A stretch of DNA of 64,000 nucleotides from a candidate division KSB1 bacterium (lineage in GTDB: Bacteria; Electryoneota; RPQS01): the NCBI GenBank assembly GCA_016214895.1, contig JACRMR010000017.1:1-64000 (forward strand). The letters are read 5' to 3'. Both the position numbers and the translations under genes were made by a program. Of the stretch, positions 4,189-63,418 are shown piece by piece (within the stretch, counting starts at the first letter, position 1; each line of letters begins with the position of its first letter). The notes beneath the pieces were generated by a model. That model was not told where the DNA came from. It saw only the letters and a list, made by a program, of their open reading frames with translations, and searched no databases.

Positions 4189-5202
4189 CTACGGCTTTGT
4201 CGTTTCCAGCACGTTGCGGATATTCCCCTCGGCTGCATCCAATAGCTCCCGGGCGGCGTTGGCACCCACCGACCGCCAGTGCATCACCAGCGCGGTCTTC
4301 AGCTCGCCCCCGGCTTCCTTCAAGACTGCGTCCGCCCATTCGTAATCGCTGCCCGTCAGCTCCATGAAGATCCGCCGCGCCCGCGCCCGCAGCTTCAACG
4401 ACCCCTGCCGCAAATCCACCATCAGATTCTCGTAACACTTCCCCAGCCGGACCATCGACGCCGTCGTCAACATGTTCAATACCAACTTCGTTGCCGTCCC
4501 CGCCTTCAGCCTTGTCGAGCCGGTCAACACTTCGGGACCGACCGGAACGGAGATGACGACATCCAAACTTGAAACTTGAAACCTGAAACCTGAAGCCGAA
4601 TCCGATTCCGGCCGCCTGGGGACGGACGGCTCGGCGGTTTCCGCTTTCCGCTTTCCGCTTTCCGCTTTCTCGTCCGGCGGCTCATTACAGATCAGCAGCA
4701 CCGTCTTCGCACCCCTTGATTTTGCGTACGTTAGAGCACCCAGCACGTATGGTGTACGACGCGAAGCGGTGATCCCGACCAGCACGTCCGCCTCATTTAG
4801 AGTACAGACGTCGAGATCATGGGCGGCTTGTGCGAAGTCGTCCTCCGCCCCCTCCACGGCGCGGAATACGGCATCCTTCCCACCGGCGATGAAGCCCTGT
4901 ACCAGATACGGCTCCGTCCCGAAGGTCGGCGGACACTCGGCCGCATCCAGCACGCCCAATCGGCCCGATGTCCCCGCCCCGACGTAGATCAATCTTCCGC
5001 CAAGGTGGAAGCAACTGACGATTAGCTCGACCGCGCGCTCGATATCCGGGATCGCCCGGGCCACGGTCTCCGGGACGGTGCGGTCCTCGGCGTTCATCGC
5101 TGCGAGGATCTCGCGTGTGCTCATGCTGTCCAACCCCAGCGTGCGGGGGTTGCGCGCTTCGGTCGTCAGGGCCGACAATTCGTCAACGATGCGCTTGGTC
5201 AT
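4189..5202 (-). CDS. murQ: N-acetylmuramic acid 6-phosphate etherase with a repeat-encoded insert
   Basis: MurQ cleaves the lactyl ether of MurNAc-6-phosphate to give GlcNAc-6-phosphate and D-lactate during cell-wall recycling. The SIS-domain signature YVGAGTSGRLGVLDAAE and the GPEVLTGSTRLKAGTATK segment are intact. The start at 5202 (MTKRIVDEL) is preferred over the longer frame because upstream codons come from a G13 tract. Between the strand ending LLICNEPP and the strand VVISVPVGPE there is an in-frame insert of about 35 residues absent from MurQ homologues. It is encoded by two arrays of four heptamers (4566-4593 and 4638-4665). The start lies inside the 3' end of rsmG, so the two are coupled. 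Confidence 0.88.
   Translation of the reverse strand: MTKRIVDELSALTTEARNPRTLGLDSMSTREILAAMNAEDRTVPETVARAIPDIERAVELIVSCFHLGGRLIYVGAGTSGRLGVLDAAECPPTFGTEPYLVQGFIAGGKDAVFRAVEGAEDDFAQAAHDLDVCTLNEADVLVGITASRRTPYVLGALTYAKSRGAKTVLLICNEPPDEKAESGKRKAETAEPSVPRRPESDSASGFRFQVSSLDVVISVPVGPEVLTGSTRLKAGTATKLVLNMLTTASMVRLGKCYENLMVDLRQGSLKLRARARRIFMELTGSDYEWADAVLKEAGGELKTALVMHWRSVGANAARELLDAAEGNIRNVLETTKP
4566..4593. repeat. tetra-heptamer element, AAACTTG type, inside murQ
   Basis: Four contiguous heptamers: AAACTTG twice, then AAACCTG twice. The element is translated as part of the murQ insert and is followed by AAGCCGA. The same heptamer occurs as four units at 7734, 55957 and 63886. Confidence 0.9.
4638..4665. 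repeat. tetra-heptamer element, TTTCCGC type, inside murQ
   Basis: Four perfect TTTCCGC units (GCGGAAA on the coding strand), 44 bp from the AAACTTG-type element. They encode a KRKAE-like stretch in MurQ. Confidence 0.9.
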
Positions 5203-5857
5203 GTGCTCGGATTCCCCCCTGCTCGCGGGGGGGGGGGGGTAAATCGGGTTCGGTTTCCAGCCACAACAGCCGCCCGCCATCGGATAGCTTCATCTCTTGC
5301 TTCAGAATTAGTTTAAGCTGAGCCAAATCAGCCTCTTGCCGCCATTTCTCGCCCTTCCACAGCAGCCACCGCCCTCCCGGCTTCAAGAGCCGCCGCGTCC
5401 AGTCGATCAACTCCGGCAGCTCCGCCACCGCCCGGGCAGTTATGACATCGAACCGCGCATTGTACTCAGCGGAGAGCATTTCAACCCGGGCCGTAAGCAC
5501 CTCGACATTCGAGAGTTGGGTTTCACGTGAAACTCGCGCCAGGAACGCTGTTTTTCGAGCACTTGACTCCACCAGCAGCCAGGAAACGTCCGGCCGGGCG
5601 ATTGCCAGCGGAATCGCCGGAAATCCGCCGCCGGAGCCAAAGTCCAGCACTCGCGCCCCATCGGGCACAAGGTCGTTCCCTGTCATACTTGGCTCTAAAT
5701 GTCTTTGTTCCAATCTGTTACGATCAGAATCCGAGACCAGCGACAGCCCGGCATCCCGCACCCGCTCCAGAAAGTGTTTCACGTGGAGCGAACGCGAATC
5801 GTCGGCAGACCAGCCGAACCGAGCCAGCATAGCAGTTAACTCAGCTGTCGATGTCAT
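5183..5857 (-). CDS. rsmG: 16S rRNA (guanine-527-N7)-methyltransferase RsmG
   Basis: RsmG (GidB) methylates G527 of 16S rRNA. A Rossmann SAM-binding motif [16 protein letters not shown] and a following acidic LLVES are visible, then the family segment [12 protein letters not shown]. The ATG overlaps the mnmG stop as ATGA, the standard mnmG-rsmG arrangement. The native protein seems to end near LLWLETEPD. The last 20 or so codons are low-complexity sequence from a C-run/G-run element containing 13 consecutive G (5227-5239), so the C-terminus is sensitive to tract length. The 3' end overlaps the murQ start by about 20 nt. Confidence 0.9.
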
Positions 5858-8606: not shown

Positions 8607-9605
8607 TTAGGGTTCTGGGAAGTAATCAGAGTCTATTCGCTTGATTGCAAATGATTTCGTCGTTGTTACGCCTACTCCGTGTTCAATCATAAGTTGAGCC
8701 AGCATCTTGCCATCTATTAGAATGACTTTCTTCGGTAGAATATCCCCAGCATATCTTCTTGCGTCGCTTGAGAAGTCAGCTGTTGTAATTAGAACGCCTT
8801 TCATCACTCGTCGCTGATCAAAACTTCCAGAAAAATCTCTTACCGCCGATACAGGAACTTGGCTATCCCATTTTTTTGCTTGAATGACAATAGAATCGGT
8901 AAGTCCAAGCATGTCTCCGTGGATTATTCCGTCTATACCACCGTCACCTGTGCGTCCAACAACCTGACCAGCGCCATCGAAGCCTCCTCCGTAGCCCATT
9001 GCTATCAAGAGATCAACAACAAGTTGCTCAAAGAACCTCGGACTGCTTGACTTAATTCGCTCTAGGAGGTCATCTATTAACAGTCCATTAATGACTCGCA
9101 GATTGAGTTCCACGATTTCCTCCGGCGTTTTCGTATCGACCGGCGGTGCGATTGCGGGTTTCGACTCAAAGGCCTGGATTTCAGGTGCACGGCTGGTTGA
9201 TTGTGTTGATTGTTCACGAACAGAAGACCAATCCGGGAATACTGGGTTTGTCCCTTTCTCCCAAGTCCATTCATCCAGCCAATTTTTGAAGTCAGGAATT
9301 TTGGAGAGAAACGTTTTATCAATTTTTGTTGGATTTTGCGTAAGGATTCTTCTACCCAAATCCGTGATCATAAACTGCGATCTTGCTGGGTACGTGATTA
9401 ATCCTGCCTTTTTGAGATAAGTTTTAGTCCAACTAAAATTGGCATCAAAGTAGTACAGATTTCCCGATCGCTCGCGTCTGTCATCTTCTGTTACTCCGAA
9501 CTGCTTTGCCAGGATATTTAAGGTTTCCTCTGTTGTATGAGAATGTCCATCTGCAGAGATTTTAAGAGTAGGGAGCATCATTGATTCATAATCTGGAATA
9601 GGCAT
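8607..9605 (-). CDS. Mrr-type restriction endonuclease (copy 1)
   Basis: Type IV-like restriction enzymes of the Mrr family cut modified DNA. The 332-aa protein has an N-terminal winged-helix Mrr_N-like region (residues 1-90) and a C-terminal PD-(D/E)xK nuclease: FFEQLVVDLLIAMGYGG, then TGDGGIDGII and IVIQAKKW, giving the D...QxK catalytic set. Start at 9605 (MPIPDYESM) matches the start of its paralogue at 11346. The open frame extending 160 codons upstream crosses repeat DNA and is not credible as protein. Copy 2 lies 0.8 kb upstream in the same direction. Confidence 0.88.
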   Translation of the reverse strand: MPIPDYESMMLPTLKISADGHSHTTEETLNILAKQFGVTEDDRRERSGNLYYFDANFSWTKTYLKKAGLITYPARSQFMITDLGRRILTQNPTKIDKTFLSKIPDFKNWLDEWTWEKGTNPVFPDWSSVREQSTQSTSRAPEIQAFESKPAIAPPVDTKTPEEIVELNLRVINGLLIDDLLERIKSSSPRFFEQLVVDLLIAMGYGGGFDGAGQVVGRTGDGGIDGIIHGDMLGLTDSIVIQAKKWDSQVPVSAVRDFSGSFDQRRVMKGVLITTADFSSDARRYAGDILPKKVILIDGKMLAQLMIEHGVGVTTTKSFAIKRIDSDYFPEP

Positions 9606-10425
9606 GGCGATTCCTCTCGCTGGGTTGTTGACAAATTCTTCCGAGCGTACGCATTGCGGCGCTTGCGGGAATTGTGATTTACGATGCAGACATTTGTCCC
9701 GATTTCGCACACGGGTGTGCTTTGCTACGGGCGGGAGATGCAATCGCCCTCCCGTATGCTTTGCGGTGCTTGGGATCGGCGATGCAATGGGCAGCCACGG
9801 GGGGCAGCGGCTACAGTCCTTGGGTTTCGCCGGACAGCCACGCGGGGCTGTCCCCACCGCCGGGCCGCCTGTCGATGAAGACGACTTCTTGTGATCCTGC
9901 AGCCGGAAGACGTGCTTCAGGATGACAGGCTTCTTGCCGGGGCTGCGGCGGAGGGGGCGCGGGGTTCGGTTTGTTTCGCCGAGGGGGCACTTGGAGACAA
10001 GTGCCGCCAAGGTGCTCCGGATCTGGGCCGAGCACCGTTCCGGCGGGGAAGGAATCCCGGCTCGGCGGAAATCAAGACATAGACTCTGCACGGCGACGAA
10101 CCCCGATTTCGCGCACGCAGTGCGGCGCTACGGGCGGGGCGATGGATGCGGTGCCTACGCTTTGACACGCCCACCAAGGTGGGCGCGACGGTTCGCAAGG
10201 CGGCCACGGGGGGGCAGCGGCTACAATCCGGTGGCTTCGACTACTCTTCCGATGGGGCACTTGAAGACAAGTGCCGCCAAGAGGGGGGTGCCGATTCCGG
10301 CCCCCCGGGGATGGACGGCGCGGCGGCGAGCAGAGCAGGGCAGGTTAACGGCGAAAGAGATCTGCCGCCGCAAAGAGGCCGACCCCCTTCGGTTCCCCCA
10401 CGGAGTGGGGGAAAGTCAGAGCAGG
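9606..10425. repeat. 820-bp repeat-rich spacer between the two mrr genes
   Basis: No gene is supported. It contains several hairpins: CGCACACGGGTGTGC near 9703, GGCACTTGGAGACAAGTGCC near 9984-10003, a GATTCCGG-family hairpin at 10038-10068, GCGCACGCAGTGCGGCGCTACGG near 10107 and CACTTGAAGACAAGTG near 10259. A segment beginning GCCACGGGG and containing GGCAGCGGCTACA occurs twice (near 9792 and 10202). TTCAGGATGACAGG near 9916 is half of another palindromic family. Confidence 0.7.
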
Positions 10426-11346
10426 CTATTCTTCCTCAAAATAGTCCGAGTCGATGCGCTTGATGGTGTAGCTGGTCACGGGCGTCACGCCCACGTCGTG
10501 GTCGATCATGAGTTGGGCCAGTTCATAGCCGTCGATTAGCACGATCTTCTTCTCGCCTGTCTTGGTCACGTACGTTTTCGCGTCACTGGTGAAGCTGGAG
10601 GTTGAGATCATCACGCCCTTCTTGGCCCCGTGGGCATCAAGACTTCCGCTGAAGTCCCGGACCGCGCCCACGGGCACGAGGCCCTCCCAGCGCTTGGCTT
10701 GCAGGTAGATCGCGCCCAGCCCCAGCTTGTCTTCCTTGATCAGGCCGTCAATCCCGCCGTCCCCCGATTTACCAATAACCTGTCCCGCTTCGGGAAGTGT
10801 CCCGCCATAGCCCATGCGTACCAGCAGATCGACAACCAAACGCTCGAAAAAGCGCGGGGAACAGGACTTGACCTTGTCCAGAATATCGTCGGCCAGGGCA
10901 GCGCGGATCTCCTGGTATGCCCCGCCGATCTGCTCTTCGGGGGTGCGAGGCGCGGGACCGTCGTGTGCTGGGTGCGCCGTGCGTTCGTCGTCGCCGCGTG
11001 TCGAGGATTCTCGCCATTCGACGTACTCGGGAAACCGGGTCAGGAACCTCATGTCAATCCGGGCGGGATTCTCTTTCAACGTCGCGGTCCCGCGTTCCGA
11101 AATTGAGTACACCCCGCGAGATTTGCGCGATGCCAACATCGCCTTGAAGAGGTAAGTCATGGACCACCGGACGATGTAGTTGAACCGCGGGCTCGCACCA
11201 TTGGGCATCAGCTCTGATCGCTCCGCTTCCGAGAGTTTGTACTCCACAGCGAGCGTTTCCACAATCTCGGTCAGGCTGCGAGGCTTGCCATCGGCCAAAC
11301 TGCGCAGCACGGGCAGCATAAGGGTCTGAAAATCGGGTATCGGCAT
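10426..11346 (-). CDS. Mrr-type restriction endonuclease (copy 2)
   Basis: A 306-aa paralogue of the downstream Mrr protein with the same architecture. It starts MPIPDFQTLMLPVL. The nuclease core reads FFERLVVDLLVRMGYGG, SGDGGIDGLI and IYLQAKRW, so the D and QxK catalytic residues are intact. Both copies end in the same sequence, KRIDSDYF. The linker between winged helix and nuclease is shorter than in copy 1 and differs in sequence. Divergence between the copies argues for an old duplication or separate acquisition, not a recent event. Confidence 0.88.
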   Translation of the reverse strand: MPIPDFQTLMLPVLRSLADGKPRSLTEIVETLAVEYKLSEAERSELMPNGASPRFNYIVRWSMTYLFKAMLASRKSRGVYSISERGTATLKENPARIDMRFLTRFPEYVEWRESSTRGDDERTAHPAHDGPAPRTPEEQIGGAYQEIRAALADDILDKVKSCSPRFFERLVVDLLVRMGYGGTLPEAGQVIGKSGDGGIDGLIKEDKLGLGAIYLQAKRWEGLVPVGAVRDFSGSLDAHGAKKGVMISTSSFTSDAKTYVTKTGEKKIVLIDGYELAQLMIDHDVGVTPVTSYTIKRIDSDYFEEE

Positions 11347-11660
11347 GTTGTTGTCCCCTGTGGAATCATTGATAATTTCTGAATCAGCCCCGAGCGTACA
11401 CAGGGGGTGCTGCGAAGCGGGCGATGCAATCGGCCCCTGCGGGAGACGCCGTTTTCTCCATGCCGTGGTCTCTGACCGTCGGATTAATTAGCCCGCCGAG
11501 CGGGGTGCCCTCACCCCGCCGGAATCGGAACGGCGGAAGGAACACCCCCGAATGCATGCCCAGGAGGCGCGACGGACCACCGAGACCCGCCCTCTGTCCC
11601 CCGGTGAACGGGGGGGGGATGATCCATCCTTACCCTTTGACACGCCCACCGAGGTGGGCG
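11347..11660. repeat. repeat-bearing spacer
   Basis: It holds an inverted copy of the GATTCCGG/CGGCGG hairpin family (11493-11526, stem GCGGGGTG/CACCCCGC). It also holds a C/G-run palindrome (11590-11620) and a CCACCGAGGTGGGCGCTACGG hairpin (11647-11667) that runs into the end of the next gene. No coding region is seen. Confidence 0.65.
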
Positions 11661-12135: not shown

Positions 12136-12227
12136 AAATGCCGAGAACTGGCGCGGGACAGGCTGACCGATTCCGGGCACCCGGGGACCGGTGCCGCGGC
12201 GGGTCCAACGGGCGGCGCAGCCGGCCC

Positions 12228-12698: not shown

Positions 12699-13509
12699 GG
12701 GAAGAATTATCCGGGATCGAGAATTGAAATTCCGAGACCGCGTGGCCACCGTGGAGCGGAGAAAACCCGAGTGAAATCGGGGCGGGCAGGGGAGGTTGGC
12801 CCAAGCACAGTAAGATAATGAGAGTGAACCAGAAACGAAAGCGGAGAGTTGAGAGAAAACATGTAAACCGCGAGCCGCGGAAACGCTAACATCAAAGAAT
12901 GGCTAAGCTTGGAACTCCAAACTTGAAGCGTGAGGGCGGAGGCGATAGAGCGCTGACCCGGTTCTGCGGCTGGGTGTGCCGCACCCCCGTCTCAGGATGT
13001 AGCTCGAAATAGGGTTGGCTGATCACTACGGCAAGGCAAGGCGGCTTTAGACCCGTGACCTTCCGCTCCGACAACGGGCTGAAGCCACGTTGCCCCCCTT
13101 GCTGCTATTCCGGGATCGGTTCTATACCCCCCCTGTGCTCCCCCCTTGGGAAGGGGAAAAGGACCCGATCCGATTCCGGGCATGTGGAGACACATGCCGC
13201 GGCGGAGCCGGCAAGATTCCGGCGGGGTGAGGGCACCCCGCTCGGCGGACAAGGCGTTCCGGCGGGGGAGGGTTAAATCCGGCCCGCGACATAACCCAAA
13301 ACGCGCCCGAATCGTTCGGCATGCCGACGCGAACCGTCGGCTGCGCATGCGATGCGCTCGGGAGGGCAGTGGCATAACAGATGGCGAGTCCGGTGTATTT
13401 GCTTTCCTGCTGTTTATTCTTTACTTTAGTCGTTGGTCCGGGGGTTGCTGTTTGCACTTATCGAGAGTGAAACCAAACAACCCCTAAATAAGAGGCGAAA
13501 ACAAGAGAC
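12699..13509. repeat. 810-bp spacer with hairpin elements and the upstream region of the next gene
   Basis: No gene is supported. Bases 13037-13093 carry a GGCTTTAG...GGGCTGAAGCC palindrome also found at 21747-21803. 13172-13204 and 13215-13248 are two consecutive hairpins of the GATTCCGG/CGGCGG family (stems GGCATGTG/CACATGCC and GCGGGGTG/CACCCCGC). The last 100 bp before 13510 are less structured and should hold the promoter of the secreted-protein gene. Confidence 0.65.
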
Positions 13510-21415: not shown

Positions 21416-21452
21416 GAAGCGCCGGCCCTGTTTGGGGGTCGGCGCTTTTTTT
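21416..21452 (+). terminator. rho-independent terminator of the ArsR-ABC operon
   Basis: GAAGCGCCGGCCC, a short loop, GGGGTCGGCGCTTTTTTT. It is nearly the same sequence as the terminator at 15628-15661. Confidence 0.9.
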
Positions 21453-21472: not shown

Positions 21473-21740
21473 GATTCCGGCGGGGTGAGGGCACCCCGCT
21501 CGGCGGAAGGCAGCAAGATTCCGGCAGGGAAGGAATCCCTGCTCGGCGGTGACGCTCCGATTCCGGGCATGTGGAGACACATGCCGCGGCGGAGCCAGCA
21601 AGATTCCGGCGGGGTGAGGGCACCCCGCTCGGCGGAAGCCAGCAAGGTTCCGGCAGGGAAGGAATCCCTGCTCGGCGGTGACGCTCCGATTCCGGGCATG
21701 TGGAGACACATGCCGCGGCGGAGCCAGCAAGATTCCGGCG
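21473..21740. repeat. higher-order hairpin array A-B-C-A-B-C
   Basis: Six consecutive hairpins start at 21473, 21517, 21559, 21602, 21646 and 21688, with a partial seventh at 21731. Each opens with (GA)TTCCGG and closes with CGGCGG. Stems cycle through A (GCGGGGTG/CACCCCGC), B (GCAGGGA/TCCCTGC) and C (GGCATGTG/CACATGCC). Spacing is 42-44 bp, so the A-B-C trimer is a 129-bp tandem repeat. The array lies between convergent genes. The adjoining 21747-21803 repeats the GGCTTTAG...GGGCTGAAGCC palindrome of 13037. Confidence 0.85.
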
Positions 21741-21889
21741 AGCCAAAGCGGCTTTAGCCCCTTGACCTTCCGCTCCGACAACGGGCTGAAGCCACGTTGC
21801 CGCACAACTCGTTGTTTCAGGATAGGCTCTAAGACCCCCCCGATGCGGGGTGGTGACAGGCTGCGCCGCCCAGCGGAGGTGCCGTCAAC

Positions 21890-24938: not shown

Positions 24939-26546
24939 CTATTTCCCAATGCAGAACTTCGAGAAGATGCGGTCGAGGATCTCTTCACCCACGGTCTCGC
25001 CGGTGATCTCGCCCAAGGCGTTCACGGCATCGCGCAGGTCGGCAGCCATGAGTGTCGGCTGGTCAAGCTGTGTGCGGGCGGCTTGCAGGCTCGCCGCCGC
25101 CTGGGTCAGGGCGTCGGCGTGTCGTGCTTCAGTTACGACAATTTCTGAATTTGTAACGGTTTCCGTGATTAGGAGTGGGACAAGTCCGGCGAGTAATTCG
25201 GGTATTCCAAGTCCGGTGCGTGCCGAAATCTCGAAGATCGCCGCAGGTGTGATGCCGACGGGGCAGCCCAGATCGGGCGCCGCACTGCCCGTTCGCAGGT
25301 CGATCTTGTTGAGGACGAGTGCGAGGGGGGGGGACGATGAACGATGAACGATGAACGATGAAGCAGAACCCCCCTTAGTCCCCCCAGTCAAGCTGGGGGG
25401 AGAGCCGAGACCCCCCTTGGTCCCCCCAGTCGAGCTGGGGGGAGAACCGAACCCCCCCTTGGTCCCCCCAGTCAAGCTGGGGGGAGAGCCGACACCCACC
25501 TCAGTCCCATCGGTCAAGCTGGGGGGAGAGCCGAGACCCCCCTGTAGTCCCCCCTTGAAAGGGGGGACGGCCAAGTCTGGCCAGATCGGTCGCTGCTCGT
25601 CGAGGACGAGCAAGATCAGATCCGCGCGGTCGATGGCGCGGTGGGTACGGGCAATGCCCTCGCCCTCGATGTGCCCCTCCGCTGAGCGAATGCCGGCGGT
25701 GTCCTGAAGAATCACTTCAATCCCGGCGAGTTCCAAGTGCGCTTCCACCACATCACGCGTCGTGCCCGGTTCGGGGCTGACAATCGCACGGTCCTCGCCC
25801 AACAAGGCGTTCAAGAGTGTTGATTTTCCGGCATTTGGAGCACCAATGATCGTCACGCGTATCCCCTCGCGAATCAACCGACCGCGAGTGAACGTCGCGA
25901 GTAGAGCATGAAGCGTCTGCTCCGCCGTGGTCAGGCTGTCCAGCCGGTGCTGGTGGGACTGAAACTGGACGTCCTCATCCGAGAAGTCCAGCTCAAGCTC
26001 AAGCAATGCCAATAAATCCAATAACATTGATCGCATGGCCCGAATCTTCTCCGACAGTCCACCAGCCAACTGCCGCGCCGCCGCGCTCCCCGCCTGAGCG
26101 GTTCGCGCGTGAATCACATCGGCCACGGCTTCGGCCTGGGCCAGGTCGAGCTTGCCATTCATAAAGGCACGCTCGGTGAACTCTCCCGGCTTGGCCTGCT
26201 GAGCACCTTTCAATAACAATAATTCCAATATCCTACTTGCCGCATATCGCCCGCCGTGGCAGCTCAGCTCGACCACATCTTCGCCGGTGTAAGAGTGCGG
26301 CGCCTTGAAGTAAGTTACCACCACCTCGTCAATGAACTCGCCGTTGTGAGAGATGCGGGAGAAGCGAGCGGAGTTCGGTGGAAGCGACTTCGGCTCGCCC
26401 GACACCCCCCCCTGCCCCCCCTTGAAAGGGGGGGTAGCTATCGTGCTCGTAATCGCGAGCGCATCCGAGCCGGAAAGGCGCAGAACAGCAATCCCGCCCA
26501 GTCCGGGCGGGGTGGAAATGGCAGCGATGGTCGAAGGGGAAGACAA
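24939..26546 (-). CDS. mnmE: tRNA modification GTPase MnmE carrying repeat-encoded inserts
   Basis: MnmE partners MnmG in wobble-uridine modification. The N-terminal TIAAISTPPGLGGIAVLRLSG, the G1 motif GAPNAGKSTLLN, G3 DTAG, G4 NKID and the C-terminal CIGK (whose Cys is family-typical) are intact. No ATG fits; TTG at 26546 gives the canonical N-terminus. Two low-complexity inserts are visible. One of about 18 residues follows AITSTI. The other, about 75 residues (GSPPSLTGGTKGG-type repeats), lies between the switch region and NKID. They are translations of C6/G6 palindromes plus one ACGATGA tetra-heptamer. The total of 535 aa compares with about 450-460 in homologues. Confidence 0.92.
   Translation of the reverse strand: MSSPSTIAAISTPPGLGGIAVLRLSGSDALAITSTIATPPFKGGQGGVSGEPKSLPPNSARFSRISHNGEFIDEVVVTYFKAPHSYTGEDVVELSCHGGRYAASRILELLLLKGAQQAKPGEFTERAFMNGKLDLAQAEAVADVIHARTAQAGSAAARQLAGGLSEKIRAMRSMLLDLLALLELELDFSDEDVQFQSHQHRLDSLTTAEQTLHALLATFTRGRLIREGIRVTIIGAPNAGKSTLLNALLGEDRAIVSPEPGTTRDVVEAHLELAGIEVILQDTAGIRSAEGHIEGEGIARTHRAIDRADLILLVLDEQRPIWPDLAVPPFKGGLQGGLGSPPSLTDGTEVGVGSPPSLTGGTKGGFGSPPSSTGGTKGGLGSPPSLTGGTKGGSASSFIVHRSSSPPLALVLNKIDLRTGSAAPDLGCPVGITPAAIFEISARTGLGIPELLAGLVPLLITETVTNSEIVVTEARHADALTQAAASLQAARTQLDQPTLMAADLRDAVNALGEITGETVGEEILDRIFSKFCIGK
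25334..25361. repeat. tetra-heptamer element, ACGATGA type, inside mnmE
   Basis: Four perfect ACGATGA units, translated within the G-domain insert and directly adjoining the palindrome cluster at 25369. Confidence 0.9.
25369..25568. repeat. cluster of five C6/G6 palindromic elements inside mnmE
   Basis: Four tandem units share the plan CCCCCCTTNGT, then the hairpin CCCCCCAG TCAAG CTGGGGGG (or a close variant), then AGANCCGA. A fifth unit has the hairpin CCCCCCTTGAAAGGGGGG. Unit length is about 42-45 bp, so each adds 14-15 residues to the protein in frame. The fourth copy has drifted (CCCATCGGTCAAG). Confidence 0.88.
26400..26441. repeat. C/G palindromic element in the mnmE N-terminal domain
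   Basis: Plan CCCCCCCCTGCCCCCCCTTGAAAGGGGGGG. It encodes the TPPFKGGQGGVSG insert. The same TTGAAA loop closes the cluster at 25551-25568. Confidence 0.8.
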
Positions 26547-26548
26547 GA

Positions 26549-26576
26549 TTAGAAATGAAGAATTAGGAAGCAGAAT
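26549..26576. repeat. degenerate tetra-heptamer element at the mnmE start
   Basis: Units TTAGAAA, TGAAGAA, TTAGGAA, GCAGAAT read as four related heptamers. They end 2 bp from the proposed TTG start codon. A C6/G6 palindrome lies just beyond at 26630-26662. Confidence 0.5.
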
Positions 26577-26667
26577 TTCGATTATTTGCGTTCCCGGGTT
26601 TTGTGCGCACGGACCTCGAGTCCCCCCCTCGGTCCCCCCCGCAAGATGTGGGGGGAAGTCCGAACGA

Positions 26668-27762
26668 CTATTGTCCTGGGTGCCCGTACTCGGGGTTGCC
26701 AAGGCGTTGGATGTGGTAGCGGTAGGCTTCGTCGGTGAGGTTCGACTGCCACACCCCGGACAGCTGGGCGGTGATGACAAAGATAATAAAAACAGCAGCT
26801 ACGATGATCGCGACCTGTTTGGGCGCGGGCTTCCAGCGGGGGGTGCCCATGTGCAGGCAGTCCACCACGGGACACGCTTCGACGCATTGCATGCAGCCGG
26901 TACATTCGACCGAGATAATCGCCAGCTTCGTATCCACCGGCAGACGCGACGGACAGACTTTCGCGCACTTGCCGCAATCGATGCAGCTCGCCGGATCGCG
27001 GCGAACCTTGATCGGCGAAAGCCACGAGAACAGACCCAGCAGTGCGCCGTAGGGACAGAGATAGCGGCACCAGAAGCCCTGGACAAAGATACTGAGAAGC
27101 GTGAGCAGGAGCAAGACTACCGCGCCCAACGTCCCAAGCTGGACAAAAAACAGCAGCATCTTCACGTCCGCGACCTGATTGTACGGACTCTGGATAAAAC
27201 TCGAGATGCCCGCGGCGCCCATCATGTAGAACGCCCAGAGGAAGAAGCCGAGAATCAGATACTTCAGACCCAGCAGCGGGAAATCCAGCCAGCGCGGCAA
27301 GAGGAAATTGCGCATGAAGAGCCAGCGGCCCAGCTTGGCCAGACCGTCGGAGAGTGTGCCGATGGGACAGAGCCAGCCGCAGAATGCCTTTCGTACAAGG
27401 AAGCTGATGGCCAGAAATGTGAGAAAGAGCACCGTCGCCGCCGGATGCACCGGATTCAGCGATCCCGAGGCCAGCCAGTCAATGGCCCCCATCAGCCCAC
27501 TGATCGGCAGCCAGCCTTCAGCTCCCGGCGGACGACTGGGCAGCGGGCCGTCTGAAGTCAGTTGTGCGGCCAGCACAAACAGATAAAATTCAGTACATAA
27601 CCAGATATTCAGCAGCACGAAACCGAGTTGCACATAGCGCCGGGGCGTCCAGAATAGCTTTCTGACTCTACGGAGGATGGGTTTCGGGAGGGATGAGGGC
27701 GGAGGGACGAGGGATGAATACGCACCGCCATCGGAATGGGGGGAGTCAGACTTGCGGTCCAT
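26668..27762 (-). CDS. NapH-like membrane polyferredoxin
   Basis: A 364-aa membrane iron-sulfur protein with about five hydrophobic helices. It has the paired CGWLCPIG and CRYLCPYG motifs of the NapH/NosR/CcoG group, then two [4Fe-4S] motifs, CIDCGKCAKVCP and CTGCMQCVEACP, and a final helix. It would pass electrons between quinol and a periplasmic or cytoplasmic reductase. No partner oxidoreductase gene is adjacent. Residues 15-27 (YSSLVPPPSSLPK) are translated from a GGGATGA-type tetra-heptamer, so the extreme N-terminus is repeat-derived. Confidence 0.82.
   Translation of the reverse strand: MDRKSDSPHSDGGAYSSLVPPPSSLPKPILRRVRKLFWTPRRYVQLGFVLLNIWLCTEFYLFVLAAQLTSDGPLPSRPPGAEGWLPISGLMGAIDWLASGSLNPVHPAATVLFLTFLAISFLVRKAFCGWLCPIGTLSDGLAKLGRWLFMRNFLLPRWLDFPLLGLKYLILGFFLWAFYMMGAAGISSFIQSPYNQVADVKMLLFFVQLGTLGAVVLLLLTLLSIFVQGFWCRYLCPYGALLGLFSWLSPIKVRRDPASCIDCGKCAKVCPSRLPVDTKLAIISVECTGCMQCVEACPVVDCLHMGTPRWKPAPKQVAIIVAAVFIIFVITAQLSGVWQSNLTDEAYRYHIQRLGNPEYGHPGQ
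27692..27719. repeat. tetra-heptamer element, GGGATGA type, in the NapH-like gene
   Basis: Units GGGATGA, GGGCGGA, GGGACGA, GGGATGA, in frame near the N-terminus. Spacer 27763-27948 also contains a weaker heptamer run (27841-27868: AGCGGAA, AGGAACA, GGGAACA, AGGACGA). Confidence 0.8.
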
Positions 27763-27948: not shown

Positions 27949-28181
27949 GATTCCGGCAGGGAAGGAATCCCTGCTCGGCGGTGACTCTCCGATTCCGGGC
28001 ATGTGGAGACACATGCCGCGGCGGAGCCAGTATCATTCCGGCGGGGTGAGGGCACCCCGCTCGGCGGAAGTGAGGAAGGAATCCCGGCGCGGCGGTGACC
28101 CTCCGATTCCGGGCATGTGGAGACACATGCCGCGGCGGAGCCAGCAAGATTCCGGCGGGGTGAGGGCACCCCGCTCGGCGA
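27949..28181. repeat. hairpin array of the GATTCCGG/CGGCGG family
   Basis: Successive hairpins use stems B (27949), C (27990), A (28034), a truncated variant with CCCGGCG (28075), C (28103) and A (28147). Stems and flanks are the same as in the 21473 array. The array sits between two minus-strand genes. A hairpin GCCCGCACCGGGAACGGCGCGGGC at 28209-28235 just after the array may be the terminator of the next gene's transcript or a further element. Confidence 0.8.
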
Positions 28182-32279: not shown

Positions 32280-32660
32280 TTAACTAAACTCCTCCGGCAG
32301 CGCGTTCACAATCTTTGCCGTTTCGGGGCTCACGCGGATCACCTGACCCACCAGCCGCACGATATATTCCGGGTCATCTTCGCGGTTCGGATCGCTGGTG
32401 ATGCCGCTGCGTTTGTCGGTCTTAATCTGGTATTGATCGACGACCCATTCCAGCGCGCTGCGGTTGCCCAGGCGATAGTCGAAGACTTCGGGCGGGATCC
32501 CCGTCACGCTGACGTGCTTGTTGATCAATAGCTCCCGGAACCCCCCTTCCGTCCCCCCAGTCGAGCCGGGGGGAGACCCGACTTTCCCCCCCAACTCGCT
32601 TGGGGGGGCAGGGGGGGTTAATCTGGAGAGCCGCATCTTCTCGACTTGCCAAAGGTCGCT
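32280..32660 (-). pseudogene. C-terminal remnant of a type ISP restriction-modification enzyme
   Basis: The residues DLWQVEKMRL, then GIPPEVFDYRLGNRSALEWV, DQYQIKTDKRSGI and DPNREDDPEYIVRLVGQV resemble the extreme C-terminal domain of long type ISP (and related helicase-methylase) restriction enzymes. These normally exceed 900 residues. Only about 110 codons of it remain, with no upstream helicase or methylase. A C6/G6 palindrome pair (32542-32618) interrupts it as PPAPPSELGGKVGSPPG. It is read as a relic; a short translated ORF to 32831 exists but starts in repeat DNA. Confidence 0.55.
32542..32618. repeat. pair of C6/G6 palindromes inside the ISP remnant
   Basis: CCCCCCAGTCGAGCCGGGGGGAGACCCGA followed by CCCCCCAACTCGCTTGGGGGGG. 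Plan and tail match the mnmE cluster. Confidence 0.8.
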
Positions 32661-32760: not shown

Positions 32761-33084
32761 GGAAAGAGCTTGCGGGGCCCGTAATCTTCGCCGATTGCCT
32801 GTGTTCTCCCGATTGGGGCACTTGAAGACAAGTGCCGCCAAGCCGATGAATCTGTTGCTTGGACTCGCCCACCAAGGTGGGCGCTACGGGGCGTCTTGCT
32901 GGTCTATTCTGGGCGGCACATGTCTGCATGTGCCCCGTCTGGAAGGAGCTTGCGGAACCCGTAATCTTCGCCGATTGCCTGTGTTGTCCCGATTGGGGCA
33001 CTTGAAGACAAGTGCCGCCAAGCCGGTGAATCTGTTGCTTGGACTGGCCCACCAAGGTGGGCGCTACGGGGCGTCTTGCTGTTT
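32761..33084. repeat. 180-bp direct tandem duplication
   Basis: The segment 32761-32904 recurs at 32941-33084 with few differences. Each copy carries a CACTTGAAGACAAGTG hairpin and a CCCACCAAGGTGGGCGCTACGG hairpin. The interval holds another inverted hairpin (GGCACATGTCTGCATGTGCC, near 32913). No coding sequence is supported. Confidence 0.8.
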
Positions 33085-35179: not shown

Positions 35180-35562
35180 TTAATTTATTGATCTTAATAA
35201 CTCTGTAAGACGTTTTTCAAAGATGTTCCAGTCAGATATGCGAGCGCGGATGTGTAGGAGAACTGTGTAGTTTACCGGAAACTTATCCTTGTTTAAACGA
35301 TAGTATTCTCGGAGTTTGCGAATGTGTCGGTGACGTACAACTGAATTCCCTACTGCGCGGGTCGCGGCAAAGGCGATCCGACGGGTCGGGAGAGTTCCGA
35401 GACCCCCCCCTGCCCCCCCAATCGAGTTGGGGGGGAGAGCGGAGGTCAAAGGCAAAAAAAAAGGACCAACTCCGGGAGTACCCGTCGCCGACCTTCTTTT
35501 CTGAGCTTCACCAGTTCCGATCGGCTTGAGAGCCGCTCAGCACGGGGAAAGTTAGCGTTCAT
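35180..35562 (-). CDS. rnpA: ribonuclease P protein component, split into two frames at a T9 tract
   Basis: RnpA is the protein subunit of the tRNA 5'-processing RNase P. The N-terminal part ([19 protein letters not shown], start at 35562) reads to a TGA at 35444-35446. The C-terminal part ([20 protein letters not shown] and onward, with the RNR-type basic helix) is in another frame entered just after nine consecutive T (35454-35462). One extra T, by slippage or a sequencing error, would join them. The junction also contains a C6/G6 palindrome encoding about 20 extra residues ([14 protein letters not shown]). The start overlaps the rpmH 3' end by 11 nt, as is usual. Confidence 0.8.
35401..35441. 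repeat. C/G palindrome inside rnpA
   Basis: CCCCCCAATCGAGTTGGGGGG, preceded by a C8 run and TG. Same plan as the elements in mnmE; translated in the rnpA C-terminal frame. Confidence 0.8.
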
Positions 35563-35828: not shown

Positions 35829-35837
35829 AATCCGATT

Positions 35838-35915
35838 TCCCCCCGGCCCCCCATAGGATATGGGGGGAGGTCCGAATCGGGTTCCCCCCTGCGTCCTGTG
35901 GGGGGGTTAGGGTGG
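35838..35915. repeat. two linked C/G palindromes upstream of rpmH
   Basis: CCCCCCATAGGATATGGGGGG, a TCCGAATCGGG joint, then CCCCCCTGCGTCCTGTGGGGGGG. Together with the preceding heptamer element this makes a three-module chain with NCCGA at each joint. Confidence 0.8.
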
Positions 35916-35921
35916 GAGAAT

Positions 35922-37424
35922 TTACTCCGACGCGGCCGTCACCTGATAGAAATATTTCTGCTGCGCGCCGACGATGAAGGGATGATGGTAGCTGGTGGTG
36001 GGCGAGACGCCGAAGGGGGTGAACGGACCATCCGCGCTCGTGCCGCCGTAGATGATGTAGTAAGGCGGCGCGAACGGCTGGCCGGTGATTGTGTGCGTGA
36101 CGGGGGCCCAATAGAGCAGCGTCCCGTTCTGCGGGCCGCGCTGCACCACGAGGCTGTCCACGGGCGGGAGCAGAATTTCGGCCTGGCCGGAAAGCGGAAC
36201 GCGGATCACGCTATCGCCCGGCTGCTGCGCGATGATCGTCAGCGTGTCAGCGAAGCTGCCGGTCGTTGTGGGCGCGAAGGTGACGGGCAATTGAAACGTT
36301 GTATGCGCGGCGATCTGGCCGTTCAGCCCGGTGGTGTCGAAGGAGAAGGCGGGGGTGGCGAGTGAGATGCTTGAGATTGGTATTGCCGAGCCGGATGGAT
36401 TGAAGAGTAATAGCAGTTGTGTTGAGTCCGTGCCGATGTCGAGCAGGCCGAAGGCGAAGGAGTCCGGGGACAATATGAGATCATCAAGATATTCATAGAT
36501 GCCCATGCCAGCATATCCGTCTGCAACGTAGACTACGCCATTTGCAGTTACCACGCCGTCAGCCTCGCCCGGCGTAACGTAGAATCCGATCTCGCGAGGT
36601 GCCGCTGGATTAGAGATGTTGACCACGCGGAGTCCAGCGGAAAGGCACGCCAGATAGACCCGATCGTCAGCAACGCACACATCTCGAACGTCATTGCTCG
36701 TGGCCAGGCTGCCAATGGACAGCGGTGGCCCTGAGATATCAAAGATCTCTAAGCCCGCACTTGTTCCGACCACTGCGAAGTGGTCATATGTTTCGACTGC
36801 CCATGCAGTTGACGAGGTCGGCACGAATTCATCCACGACCGGATCGGGGAACGGGGCGAGATTCACCCTGCACAACCCGATGCCTGTGGCTACGTACGCA
36901 TACTGACCGGACAATTTAATATCGTGCGCCCCGCCAGGAATTTCGCAAAGGCCGACCTGGTACGGAGCGGTTGGGTTGGCCGCATTGATTCTGTTGAGAT
37001 AGCCTCCTGCATGCCCTATGTAGACCGTCTGATCGGAGTATGCTACCGACGTTGCTTGCCCCCAAACATAGTGCCCCTCTTGGTATATCGAATTCGGGTT
37101 CGCAATATTGACGATTCGCAGTCCGCCCTCGTAGTCTGCAACATAGGCGTATGTTCCACTTAACTCGACGGCATAGCAATACGTCATGTTGTACGAAAAG
37201 CAGTAACTCGTTTCAAATGGACTCGTCGGATTGCTCACGTTGATCGCGCGTAGGCCGCCTTCGAAGTCGGCTACAAGTGCCAAGGTGTCGCGAATGGCTA
37301 CTCCCCGAGCCCGTCCAGGTGTATCGACACTGCCAATTCGGCGCACTCTCAAGCTGTCTTCGCAGAGTGCCGTGGAGACTTGAGACACGATTACGGCGGC
37401 GATGAAGGCAAGCATACGGGGCAT
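35922..37424 (-). CDS. exported LVIVD-repeat beta-propeller protein
   Basis: A 500-aa protein. The start at 37424 follows AAGGAG and gives a signal peptide (MPRMLAFIAAVIVSQVSTA). LVIVD-type repeats are clear: GLRAINVSNPTSP, GLRIVNIANPNSI, GLEIFDISGPPLS, GLRVVNISNPAAP. An ASPM/Hydin-like immunoglobulin domain (about 345-420) and a C-terminal fibronectin-type segment (PYYIIYGGTSADGPFTPFG) follow. There is no YPNPFN tag. The next secreted protein (38192-40774) has the same C-terminal segment, so the two may share a fate. Confidence 0.75.
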   Translation of the reverse strand: MPRMLAFIAAVIVSQVSTALCEDSLRVRRIGSVDTPGRARGVAIRDTLALVADFEGGLRAINVSNPTSPFETSYCFSYNMTYCYAVELSGTYAYVADYEGGLRIVNIANPNSIYQEGHYVWGQATSVAYSDQTVYIGHAGGYLNRINAANPTAPYQVGLCEIPGGAHDIKLSGQYAYVATGIGLCRVNLAPFPDPVVDEFVPTSSTAWAVETYDHFAVVGTSAGLEIFDISGPPLSIGSLATSNDVRDVCVADDRVYLACLSAGLRVVNISNPAAPREIGFYVTPGEADGVVTANGVVYVADGYAGMGIYEYLDDLILSPDSFAFGLLDIGTDSTQLLLLFNPSGSAIPISSISLATPAFSFDTTGLNGQIAAHTTFQLPVTFAPTTTGSFADTLTIIAQQPGDSVIRVPLSGQAEILLPPVDSLVVQRGPQNGTLLYWAPVTHTITGQPFAPPYYIIYGGTSADGPFTPFGVSPTTSYHHPFIVGAQQKYFYQVTAASE

Positions 37425-37447
37425 GAGTGGCTCCTTGAAGTGTTCTT

Positions 37448-37643
37448 TCCCCCCTGGCCCCCCATAGGATATGGGGGGAAGCCGATAACGAGGGGAAGAT
37501 AAGATACAGCGGAATTTGGCGATTCTCAACTGGGGCAGATGGATTGGGCTGAGCGACGGAGATTTCCCCCCTTAATCCCCCACAGGATGTGGGGGAGACC
37601 CGACTCCGACTCCCCCCATATCCTATGGGGGGCCGGGGGGGAG
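37448..37643. repeat. three C/G palindromes between the LVIVD and DUF559 genes
   Basis: CCCCCCATAGGATATGGGGGG (37456-37476), CCCCCACAGGATGTGGGGG (37576-37594) and CCCCCCATATCCTATGGGGGG (37613-37633). The last runs into the 3' end of the DUF559 gene and supplies its final codons. AAATTTGGC-type spacer around the first one is repeated near 38085. Confidence 0.75.
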
Positions 37644-38012
37644 CTCGGGCTTCAGTTGCGTGATGATCTTGCGGATTTCGTCGAGGACTTTTTCCGGCGT
37701 TTCCAAAACTTCGCGGTTGGTGAAGCGCACGACGACGCGCTGACGCGATTTCAGATAGGCTTCGCGTTCGGCGTCACGGGCTTTCACTTCTTCCAGCGCG
37801 TGAATCTCGCCATCGAGTTCGATCACCAGGCGCAATTCGTCGGCATAGAAATCGACGATGTACGGACCGATGGGATGCTGGCAGCGAAACTTGACACCGA
37901 GTTGCTTGCCCATGAGCGCGCTCCACAGCACCTGCTCGGCAGGGGTCAAGGCCCGGCGAAGCTCGTGGGCGCGCGACCAATTTTCGTGGGGGACGGTGGT
38001 CCAGCGTTTCAT
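37623..38012 (-). CDS. DUF559-family restriction-endonuclease-like protein
   Basis: A 129-aa protein that starts MKRWTTVPHE at 38012. RALTPAEQVLWSAL, GVKFRCQHPIGPYIVDFYA and LRLVIELDGEIHAL are the signature blocks of DUF559, a PD-(D/E)xK (Vsr-related) fold. The acidic residues of IVDFY and ELDG are in place. Members are often solitary and of unknown substrate. Its last residues (LPPGPP) come from a palindromic element, and palindromes flank both sides, so it may have moved in with them. Confidence 0.78.
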   Translation of the reverse strand: MKRWTTVPHENWSRAHELRRALTPAEQVLWSALMGKQLGVKFRCQHPIGPYIVDFYADELRLVIELDGEIHALEEVKARDAEREAYLKSRQRVVVRFTNREVLETPEKVLDEIRKIITQLKPELPPGPP

Positions 38013-38022
38013 GGGAAGATTT

Positions 38023-38186
38023 CCCCCCTGGCCCCCCACTGGATGTGGGGGGAACCCGAAAGGTGGGAAGATCAAGTTACGGCGGTTTTTGGCAAAACTC
38101 AATTGGGGCGGAAGATTTCCCCCCTGGCCCCCCATAGGATATGGGGGGAATCCGAAAGACCCACTGGATGCGGGGGGAACCCGAGG
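38023..38186. repeat. three C/G palindromes upstream of the DUF559 gene
   Basis: Near-identical units GATTTCCCCCCTGGCCCCCCA...TGGGGGGAANCCGAAAG at 38019-38064 and 38109-38158, plus a partial third (ACTGGATGCGGGGGGAACCCGA, 38164-38185). Confidence 0.8.
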
Positions 38187-46362: not shown

Positions 46363-46739
46363 GACACTGCTGAGCTGAAGGCCGGTTTCCGATTCCGGCG
46401 GAGTCTCCCGACTCCGGTCGGGGTCTGAAGCTCGCGCACGGCTGGATGGGCTTGTTGCTGAAAGGCGCTCGCCGAGCCGTGCGTCCCCGTGCGGACGGAA
46501 TCTGGGGCATTGGATGCCGATTGAAGCACAACTGAGTTTGACTGCCGTCAATTCCGGCGGGGACACAGTCCCCGCTCGGCGGATTCCGATTTCGGCAACA
46601 AGCCCGGATGACGCTATGAATGCGGGGCACATCAATGCTGAAGAGATGTGCCGCCGCCTGCAATGATATCAATGCTCAAGAGATGTGCCGCCGCGAGCGA
46701 CAATGGATGCCCGGGCTGGCGAAGCTCGCGTCCTGCTAC
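46363..46739. repeat. hairpin-bearing spacer downstream of dnaA
   Basis: Hairpins of the TTCCGG/CGGCGG family occur at 46393-46425 (GCGGAGTC/GACTCCG) and 46552-46582 (GCGGGGAC/GTCCCCGC). CACATC...GATGTGCCGCCG stems lie near 46627-46655 and again near 46670-46697. No gene is supported. Confidence 0.6.
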
Positions 46740-63296: not shown

Positions 63297-63418
63297 GGCG
63301 CGAGCAGGAATCGGGTCGGGAAATCAGAAACAAACGCCGAGTTCTTGAGCGGGGCATGTCAAGACTCCAGAGACATGCCGCCGCAAGATAGATCGCACAC
63401 GGCGGTGCGACGCTACAA

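Follow-up and report, generated by a model that had tools for sequence, protein, structure and literature searches.

Bacterial REP repeats with stem classes tied to RAYT genes are already known. In Pseudomonas fluorescens and Stenotrophomonas, many REP classes are distinguished by their stems, each with a cognate RAYT; the classes were defined by proximity to a RAYT, their abundance follows the presence of the cognate RAYT, several classes occur per genome, and RAYTs that are orthologous do not always share a stem (Nunvar et al. 2013, PMC3686654). TnpAREP proteins and REPs co-evolve, and recognition combines tag, bulge, loop, and stem in various ways (PMC8266576). In strain SBW25, tandem arrays mix two REP classes in a single orientation (PMC3116915). 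Palindromic repeats of 20–40 bp tagged with GTAG or CGTC are both dispersed and clustered, include intragenic copies, and can form several families per genome (PMC3733652). No literature was found on REPs in candidate phyla or in KSB1.

The array studied here occupies positions 21473–21740 of a 64-kb window (the whole stretch of DNA analysed) of a 3.21-Mb genome (G000; 26 contigs, 98% complete) and is bordered by two convergent genes, whose 3′ ends face it. It contains six plus-strand hairpins in the order A-B-C-A-B-C, starting at 21475, 21519, 21561, 21604, 21648, and 21690 and spanning 21475–21721. The first unit consists of a class A hairpin (GCGGGGTG stem, AGGG loop; 21475–21506), a class B hairpin (GCAGGGA stem, AGGAA loop; 21519–21549), and a class C hairpin (GGCATGTG stem, GAGA loop; 21561–21592), and the second unit occupies 21604–21721. 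TRF reported a period of 129 bp (2.1 copies, 98% match) together with a 43-bp sub-period, in agreement with the original prediction of a 43-bp-period array whose three stem types recur in order every 129 bp. The A-B-C-A-B-C order therefore results from ordinary tandem duplication of a unit of three hairpins, 129 bp in length. When folded as single-stranded DNA, the array had a free energy of −91.2 kcal/mol (200 shuffles, z = −8.5), and all six hairpins were present in the centroid fold. Scans for terminators and promoters around the array called nothing, T-tracts were absent, and the curated Rfam families yielded zero matches at gathering score across the window. By eye, a GC-rich hairpin followed by T's can be seen nearby at about 21418–21452. 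A 105-nt sequence was also observed behind this array (21736–21840) and ahead of the hairpin doublet at 13174 (13029–13133), with 80% identity between the two sites; its CAACGGGCTGAAGCC portion is similar to the stem flanking another RAYT, L185.

Units related to the A-B-C unit, with nearly identical linkers, are present at two further places on the plus strand, as had been predicted for 13172–13248 and 27949–28181: a C-A doublet at 13174–13248 (starts 13174 and 13217), whose linker is that of the focal array, and an array of B-C-A, truncated B, and C-A at 27951–28181 (hairpins at 27951–28179). The additional stems expected at 10038, 11493, 46393, and 46552 were likewise all found at these coordinates. 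They include a lone GCGGGGA/AGGAA hairpin with one mismatch (10038–10068, plus strand), a lone class A hairpin on the minus strand (11493–11524), and a GCGGGGAC/ACA hairpin (46552–46582, plus strand). Three plus-strand copies had not been listed earlier, namely a GCCGCCTG/GGGA hairpin at 4606–4637, which lies within an in-frame insertion of murQ, a degenerate hairpin at 10295–10326, and a GGCACCCG/GGGA hairpin at 12171–12202. Of the copies in the window, those in the three arrays (13174, 21475, and 27951) and the single one at 46552 fall outside genes with Pfam support, one is inside murQ, and a few could be either.

Base pairing extends to the flanks TTCCGG and CGGCGG, where CCG is matched by CGG and one T or G is left unpaired. 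The layout is TT-CCG-(8 bp)-(3–4 nt)-(8 bp)-N-CGG-CGG, and the hairpin thus consists of a 3-bp outer stem, a 1-nt 3′ bulge, an 8-bp inner stem, and a loop of 3–4 nt. A scan of the window for 3-bp outer plus 8-bp inner stems yielded 34 hairpins in which just one 3′ base is unpaired and 12, 8, and 5 in which zero, two, and three are, respectively, so that the 1-nt bulge is enriched. Sister classes in the same genome have other outer stems and the same bulge: GGCACTTG/AAGA with the outer stem TGG/CCA (10253–10279, plus strand, with more copies at 9986–10005, 32814–32840, and 32994–33020), and GGCACATC (46623–46656) and GGCATGTC (63350–63383), both on the plus strand with the outer stem CGG/CCG and an 11-nt loop. 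The bulged hairpin recalls the Group 2 TnpAREP/REP system of Escherichia coli, in which an HUH-Y1 protein recognizes such a structure and REPs reside beside the gene (PMC8266576; PDB 4er8). In the E. coli REPs, however, the stem contains two conserved mismatches and GTAG is required, whereas here a single unpaired 3′ base separates the inner and outer stems.

The consensus upstream of the hairpin is CCGATT. In 52 of 67 copies, GATT abuts the 5′ side of the outer stem, although its TT part is imposed by the search pattern. REPs of Pseudomonas and Stenotrophomonas start with a GTAG/GTGG-type tetranucleotide; here GTAG was found at the hairpin foot in 1 of 67 copies (0.7 expected), i.e. at chance level. 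No CGTC tag above chance was found at the foot of the 67 copies either. The present elements resemble the GTAG/CGTC palindromic repeats in being 20–40 bp long, dispersed, and clustered, in sharing a genome with other families, and in having an intragenic copy (PMC3733652), but not in their tags. Orientation also differs from that of REPINs, which are inverted doublets: among the listed copies, all 27 neighbour pairs ≤300 bp apart are on the same strand, head-to-tail, and none form the inverted doublets of REPINs or BIMEs, with inversion seen at some RAYT loci. The mosaic higher-order arrays are nevertheless a feature shared with REPINs, BIMEs, and tandem REP arrays (PMC3116915).

Genome-wide, the pattern TTCCGG-N18-22-CGGCGG (30–34 nt) had 157 exact matches, compared with 16 for a control pattern read backwards, a high copy number for a palindrome in the 20–50 nt range of REPs. 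Of these matches, 100 were listed, and the listed ones of 31–32 nt comprise 48 different paired elements, which have 28 left arms between them. This number, a minimum because it comes from the listed matches, substantiates the claim that constant flanks enclose many different stems. In the 48 listed elements, 340 of 384 positions form Watson–Crick pairs, compared with 216 ± 10 when right arms were shuffled among elements. An alignment of 39 distinct 32-mers, chance matches included, gave a covariation score of 0.414 (shuffles, 0.154 ± 0.018; slid partners, ≤0.125) with double changes in seven of the eight inner pairs. Pairing is thus retained far above shuffles while the stem changes, as originally proposed, and the number of left arms together with the covariation is incompatible with a genome holding only two or three stem sequences, the case named in advance as fatal to that proposal. 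The stems are not all perfectly self-complementary as had been stated: mismatches cluster at stem positions 5 and 8 (15 of 67 copies each), and class B closes with an A·A mismatch. The stems form multi-copy families common to distant loci, and some families have been amplified with a fixed mismatch. The same flanks are present in several related genera; a pattern scan of genome contigs was too permissive, and among its loci only L056 (genome G061) is well paired. The G061 contig RPQS01000049 is labelled candidate division KSB1.

The copy in murQ was compared with related genomes. The gene (4192–5280, minus strand) was identified by its SIS domains, and in G000 it encodes about 32 extra residues corresponding to a TTCCGG hairpin plus 7-bp repeats, in frame. 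The two halves of murQ are only 3–12 nt apart in G001, G005, G008, and G011, and in G002 and G007 this position is occupied by other repeats. This comparison shows the gain of a composite piece at a formerly near-empty site; since the inserted piece is composite, the mobile unit is not delimited by the murQ site. Many short tandem arrays, with periods of 7 or 14 bp and varied units (AAACTTG, TTTCCGC, ACGATGA, and AAGGATG), were also noticed at 4549–4594, 4638–4669, 7734, 12107, 25334, 34861, 45120, 55957, and 63886, and heptamer repeats occupy the same in-frame murQ site in G000 and G002.

The search for a RAYT-type transposase suggested by the original prediction was successful. Four RAYT-like genes were detected in G000 with PF01797 (Y1_Tnp), and two of the four are clearly flanked by hairpins of this kind. 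L033 and L032, the two scanned, exceed the cut-off of NCBIfam NF047646 (REP-associated tyrosine transposase), and aligning ten proteins of the RAYT clade showed no variation in the HUH (HxH) motif or the catalytic Tyr, so that the HUH motif with Tyr, the Y1_Tnp domain, and the REP_Tyr_transpos model all agree with a RAYT identity. The best PDB match was the solved TnpArep 4er8, a weak one (E = 0.38). Upstream of L033 (contig C7, 32422–32907) lie two class B hairpins in inverted orientation, and downstream of it two in direct orientation, so that the class B stem of the focal array occurs on both sides of the gene. L032 (contig C3, 161293–161766) lies inside arrays of GGCACTTG hairpins with approximately ten copies per side, L034 has GGCATGTC hairpins (11-nt loops) on its flanks, and the hairpins around L031 are of the GGCAGGTG/GGCACGTG kind. 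For stems A and C, a cognate RAYT is absent from this 98% complete genome, which counts against the RAYT–REP interpretation. Hairpins with the RAYT's own stem type were also seen in frame within the RAYT reading frame; in L034 and L190 they lie between the HUH and Tyr motifs, and in L252 they lie in the C-terminal part. RAYTs of other groups in the same genomes (L176, L183, L185, and L203) have different flanking hairpins, some by CTAG or ATTAG; several REP/RAYT systems therefore coexist in these genomes.

RAYTs of this clade in related genomes tend to have a stem of their own (GCAGGGTC, GGCAGATC, GGCAGGTG, GCCGGGTT, GGCACGTG, GCGGGGTC, and others). A hairpin with the same stem was present within 200 bp on both sides of 15 of 27 RAYT loci in the order, compared with 6 of 600 random control windows; this is a looser version of the test, in which the outer stem was not required, adopted after a stricter bulged-hairpin version (7 of 27 loci versus 4 of 400 controls). 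A cognate RAYT flanked by the same REP is thus found for class B at L033 and at these 15 loci, but not for A or C, and the remaining 12 loci have no matching pair, some owing to nearby contig ends. Across all pairs, RAYT distance and stem distance were not significantly correlated (Mantel r = 0.09, p = 0.16), which also counts against the RAYT–REP reading. GGCA stems, a pattern noticed post hoc, accompany all nine RAYTs of one clade (support 87/92) and one of the 11 others with an assigned stem.

Once the RAYT table had been built, the prediction that a stem should be abundant only in genomes with a RAYT carrying it was put to the test. GGCACTTG has 67 copies in G000, 16 in G002, and none in 11 others; G000 and G002 are precisely the genomes in which a RAYT lies next to this stem. 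GGCAGATC has 24 copies in G009, 24 in G011, and 16 in G012, with at most one elsewhere, and RAYTs beside it occur in G012 and G009, two of the three genomes rich in this stem; the RAYT of G011, a sister of the G012 RAYT, is instead flanked by GCAGGGTC. The paired GCAGGGA..TCCCTGC stem has 60 copies in G000, 30 in G008, and 2 in G001. Among the listed places, its AGGAA-loop form, which flanks L033, is confined to G000, and its ACA-loop form occurs in G000, G008, and G001, being abundant in G008 even though no RAYT of this clade lies beside it there. The GGCAGATC copies in G011 and the ACA-loop form in G008 run against the RAYT–REP reading; overall, stems are abundant mainly in genomes whose RAYT carries them.

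Our analysis demonstrates the hairpin architecture, the covariation of the arms, the multi-copy stem families, RAYTs flanked by hairpins with matching stems, and stems abundant mainly where a RAYT carries them. From these we infer that the elements are very probably REP elements, i.e. hairpins mobilized, now or formerly, by RAYT/TnpAREP HUH-Y1 enzymes. The signs of mobilization are indirect, namely stem abundance that tracks the RAYTs and a murQ site occupied here and near-empty in relatives. The suspected likeness to REPs has thus been borne out, and the system behaves like REP/RAYT while falling outside strict GTAG-tagged REPs. The accompanying remark, according to which the stems of REP/BIME elements are usually conserved, is true within a REP class but not between classes, since published classes differ in stem, each with its own RAYT (PMC3686654, PMC8266576). 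Each RAYT would bind the folded strand through the tag, the bulge, and the outer stem, with specificity for stem and loop, and would cut and re-insert the hairpin so that both arms move together; a RAYT lineage that switched to a new stem would then give rise to an expanding new REP class with flanks and bulge unchanged. After insertion, arrays such as A-B-C-A-B-C would lengthen by ordinary tandem duplication and copies would decay. The spread of classes A and C may go back to RAYTs that have since been lost or to one of relaxed specificity. More tentatively, this could be an untagged REP system in which the RAYTs all recognize a shared handle, the constant frame of GATT, the CCG/CGG outer stem, and the single unpaired 3′ base, and read the 8-bp inner stem with its loop as an exchangeable specificity code, so that the RAYT clade of one order forms many mutually selective enzyme–hairpin pairs.

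Other explanations account for parts of these data. Structured RNA elements (terminators, mRNA stabilizers, or regulators), kept copy by copy through selection on RNA folding and drifting in place by compensatory changes, would produce covariation of the arms and would suit an array located between the 3′ ends of convergent genes. We nevertheless consider this improbable, given that identical stems form families at distant loci, that families mismatched at position 5 have been amplified, that T-tracts, terminator calls, and Rfam matches are all absent, and that stem identity tracks the presence of a RAYT. The proposal that structure is selected at each copy is accordingly not supported by these multi-copy families, some of which are amplified with a fixed mismatch, although a secondary RNA role following insertion may exist. 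Rewriting of stems in place by replication template switching (quasipalindrome correction), in which one arm is copied onto the other, is even less probable; it would preserve pairing while the sequence changes, as the original prediction pointed out, but it would also erase mismatches, which persist in amplified families, and it leaves both the RAYT link and the identical stems at dozens of loci unexplained. The idea of a mechanism that copies both arms survives in part: a single-strand RAYT-type transposase would move the whole hairpin, whereas free exchange of stems in place is not supported.

Two further readings are least likely of all. Integron attC sites combine ends that are conserved with unpaired bases and stems that vary, an architecture similar to that seen here. 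A parallel between REP and attC recognition has indeed been drawn (PMC8266576). The present elements, however, are only 31–32 nt long and form short-spaced arrays with no cassette genes between them, and the associated enzymes are RAYTs, so that attC-like recombination sites are a highly implausible identification. A mere tandem duplication of three unrelated hairpins belonging to no wider family would explain the A-B-C-A-B-C order and the 98% identity of the 129-bp units, but as a full explanation it is refuted by the 157 genome copies, the at least 28 left arms, and the occurrence of the same flanks in several related genera.

Viewed as REP elements, the hairpins share with those of Pseudomonas and Stenotrophomonas classes that differ in stem, proximity to RAYTs, abundance following the cognate RAYT, different stems at orthologous RAYTs, and the presence of several classes in one genome. 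They are distinct in having GATT rather than GTAG, the conserved 1-nt 3′ bulge, head-to-tail arrays, and RAYTs that form a separate clade restricted to two families of one order in a little-studied lineage. RAYT–REP co-diversification would thereby be extended, without the GTAG tag, to a lineage with a MAG labelled candidate division KSB1 in its family, and the approximately 20 natural RAYT–stem pairs of one architecture make the choice of hairpin by RAYTs directly testable.

Several other features of the window were observed. A second abundant hairpin family has C/G-rich stems (CCCCCC..GGGGGG) with a trailing CCGA, single or in tandem, and was seen at 25365–25568, 26404, 32538–32617, 35400–35444, 35829–38158, 51145, and 60134. 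In MnmE (613 aa; 24939–26780, minus strand) the helical domain is split by consecutive in-frame copies of a 14-residue repeat, GSPPSLTGGTKGGL, whose coding sequence is a 42-bp C-rich hairpin array at 25368–25554. The window also contains two adjacent genes for Mrr-type restriction endonucleases (Mrr_N plus Mrr_cat) on the minus strand at 8607–10091 and 10426–11346, and several of its proteins end in a Por_Secre_tail domain.
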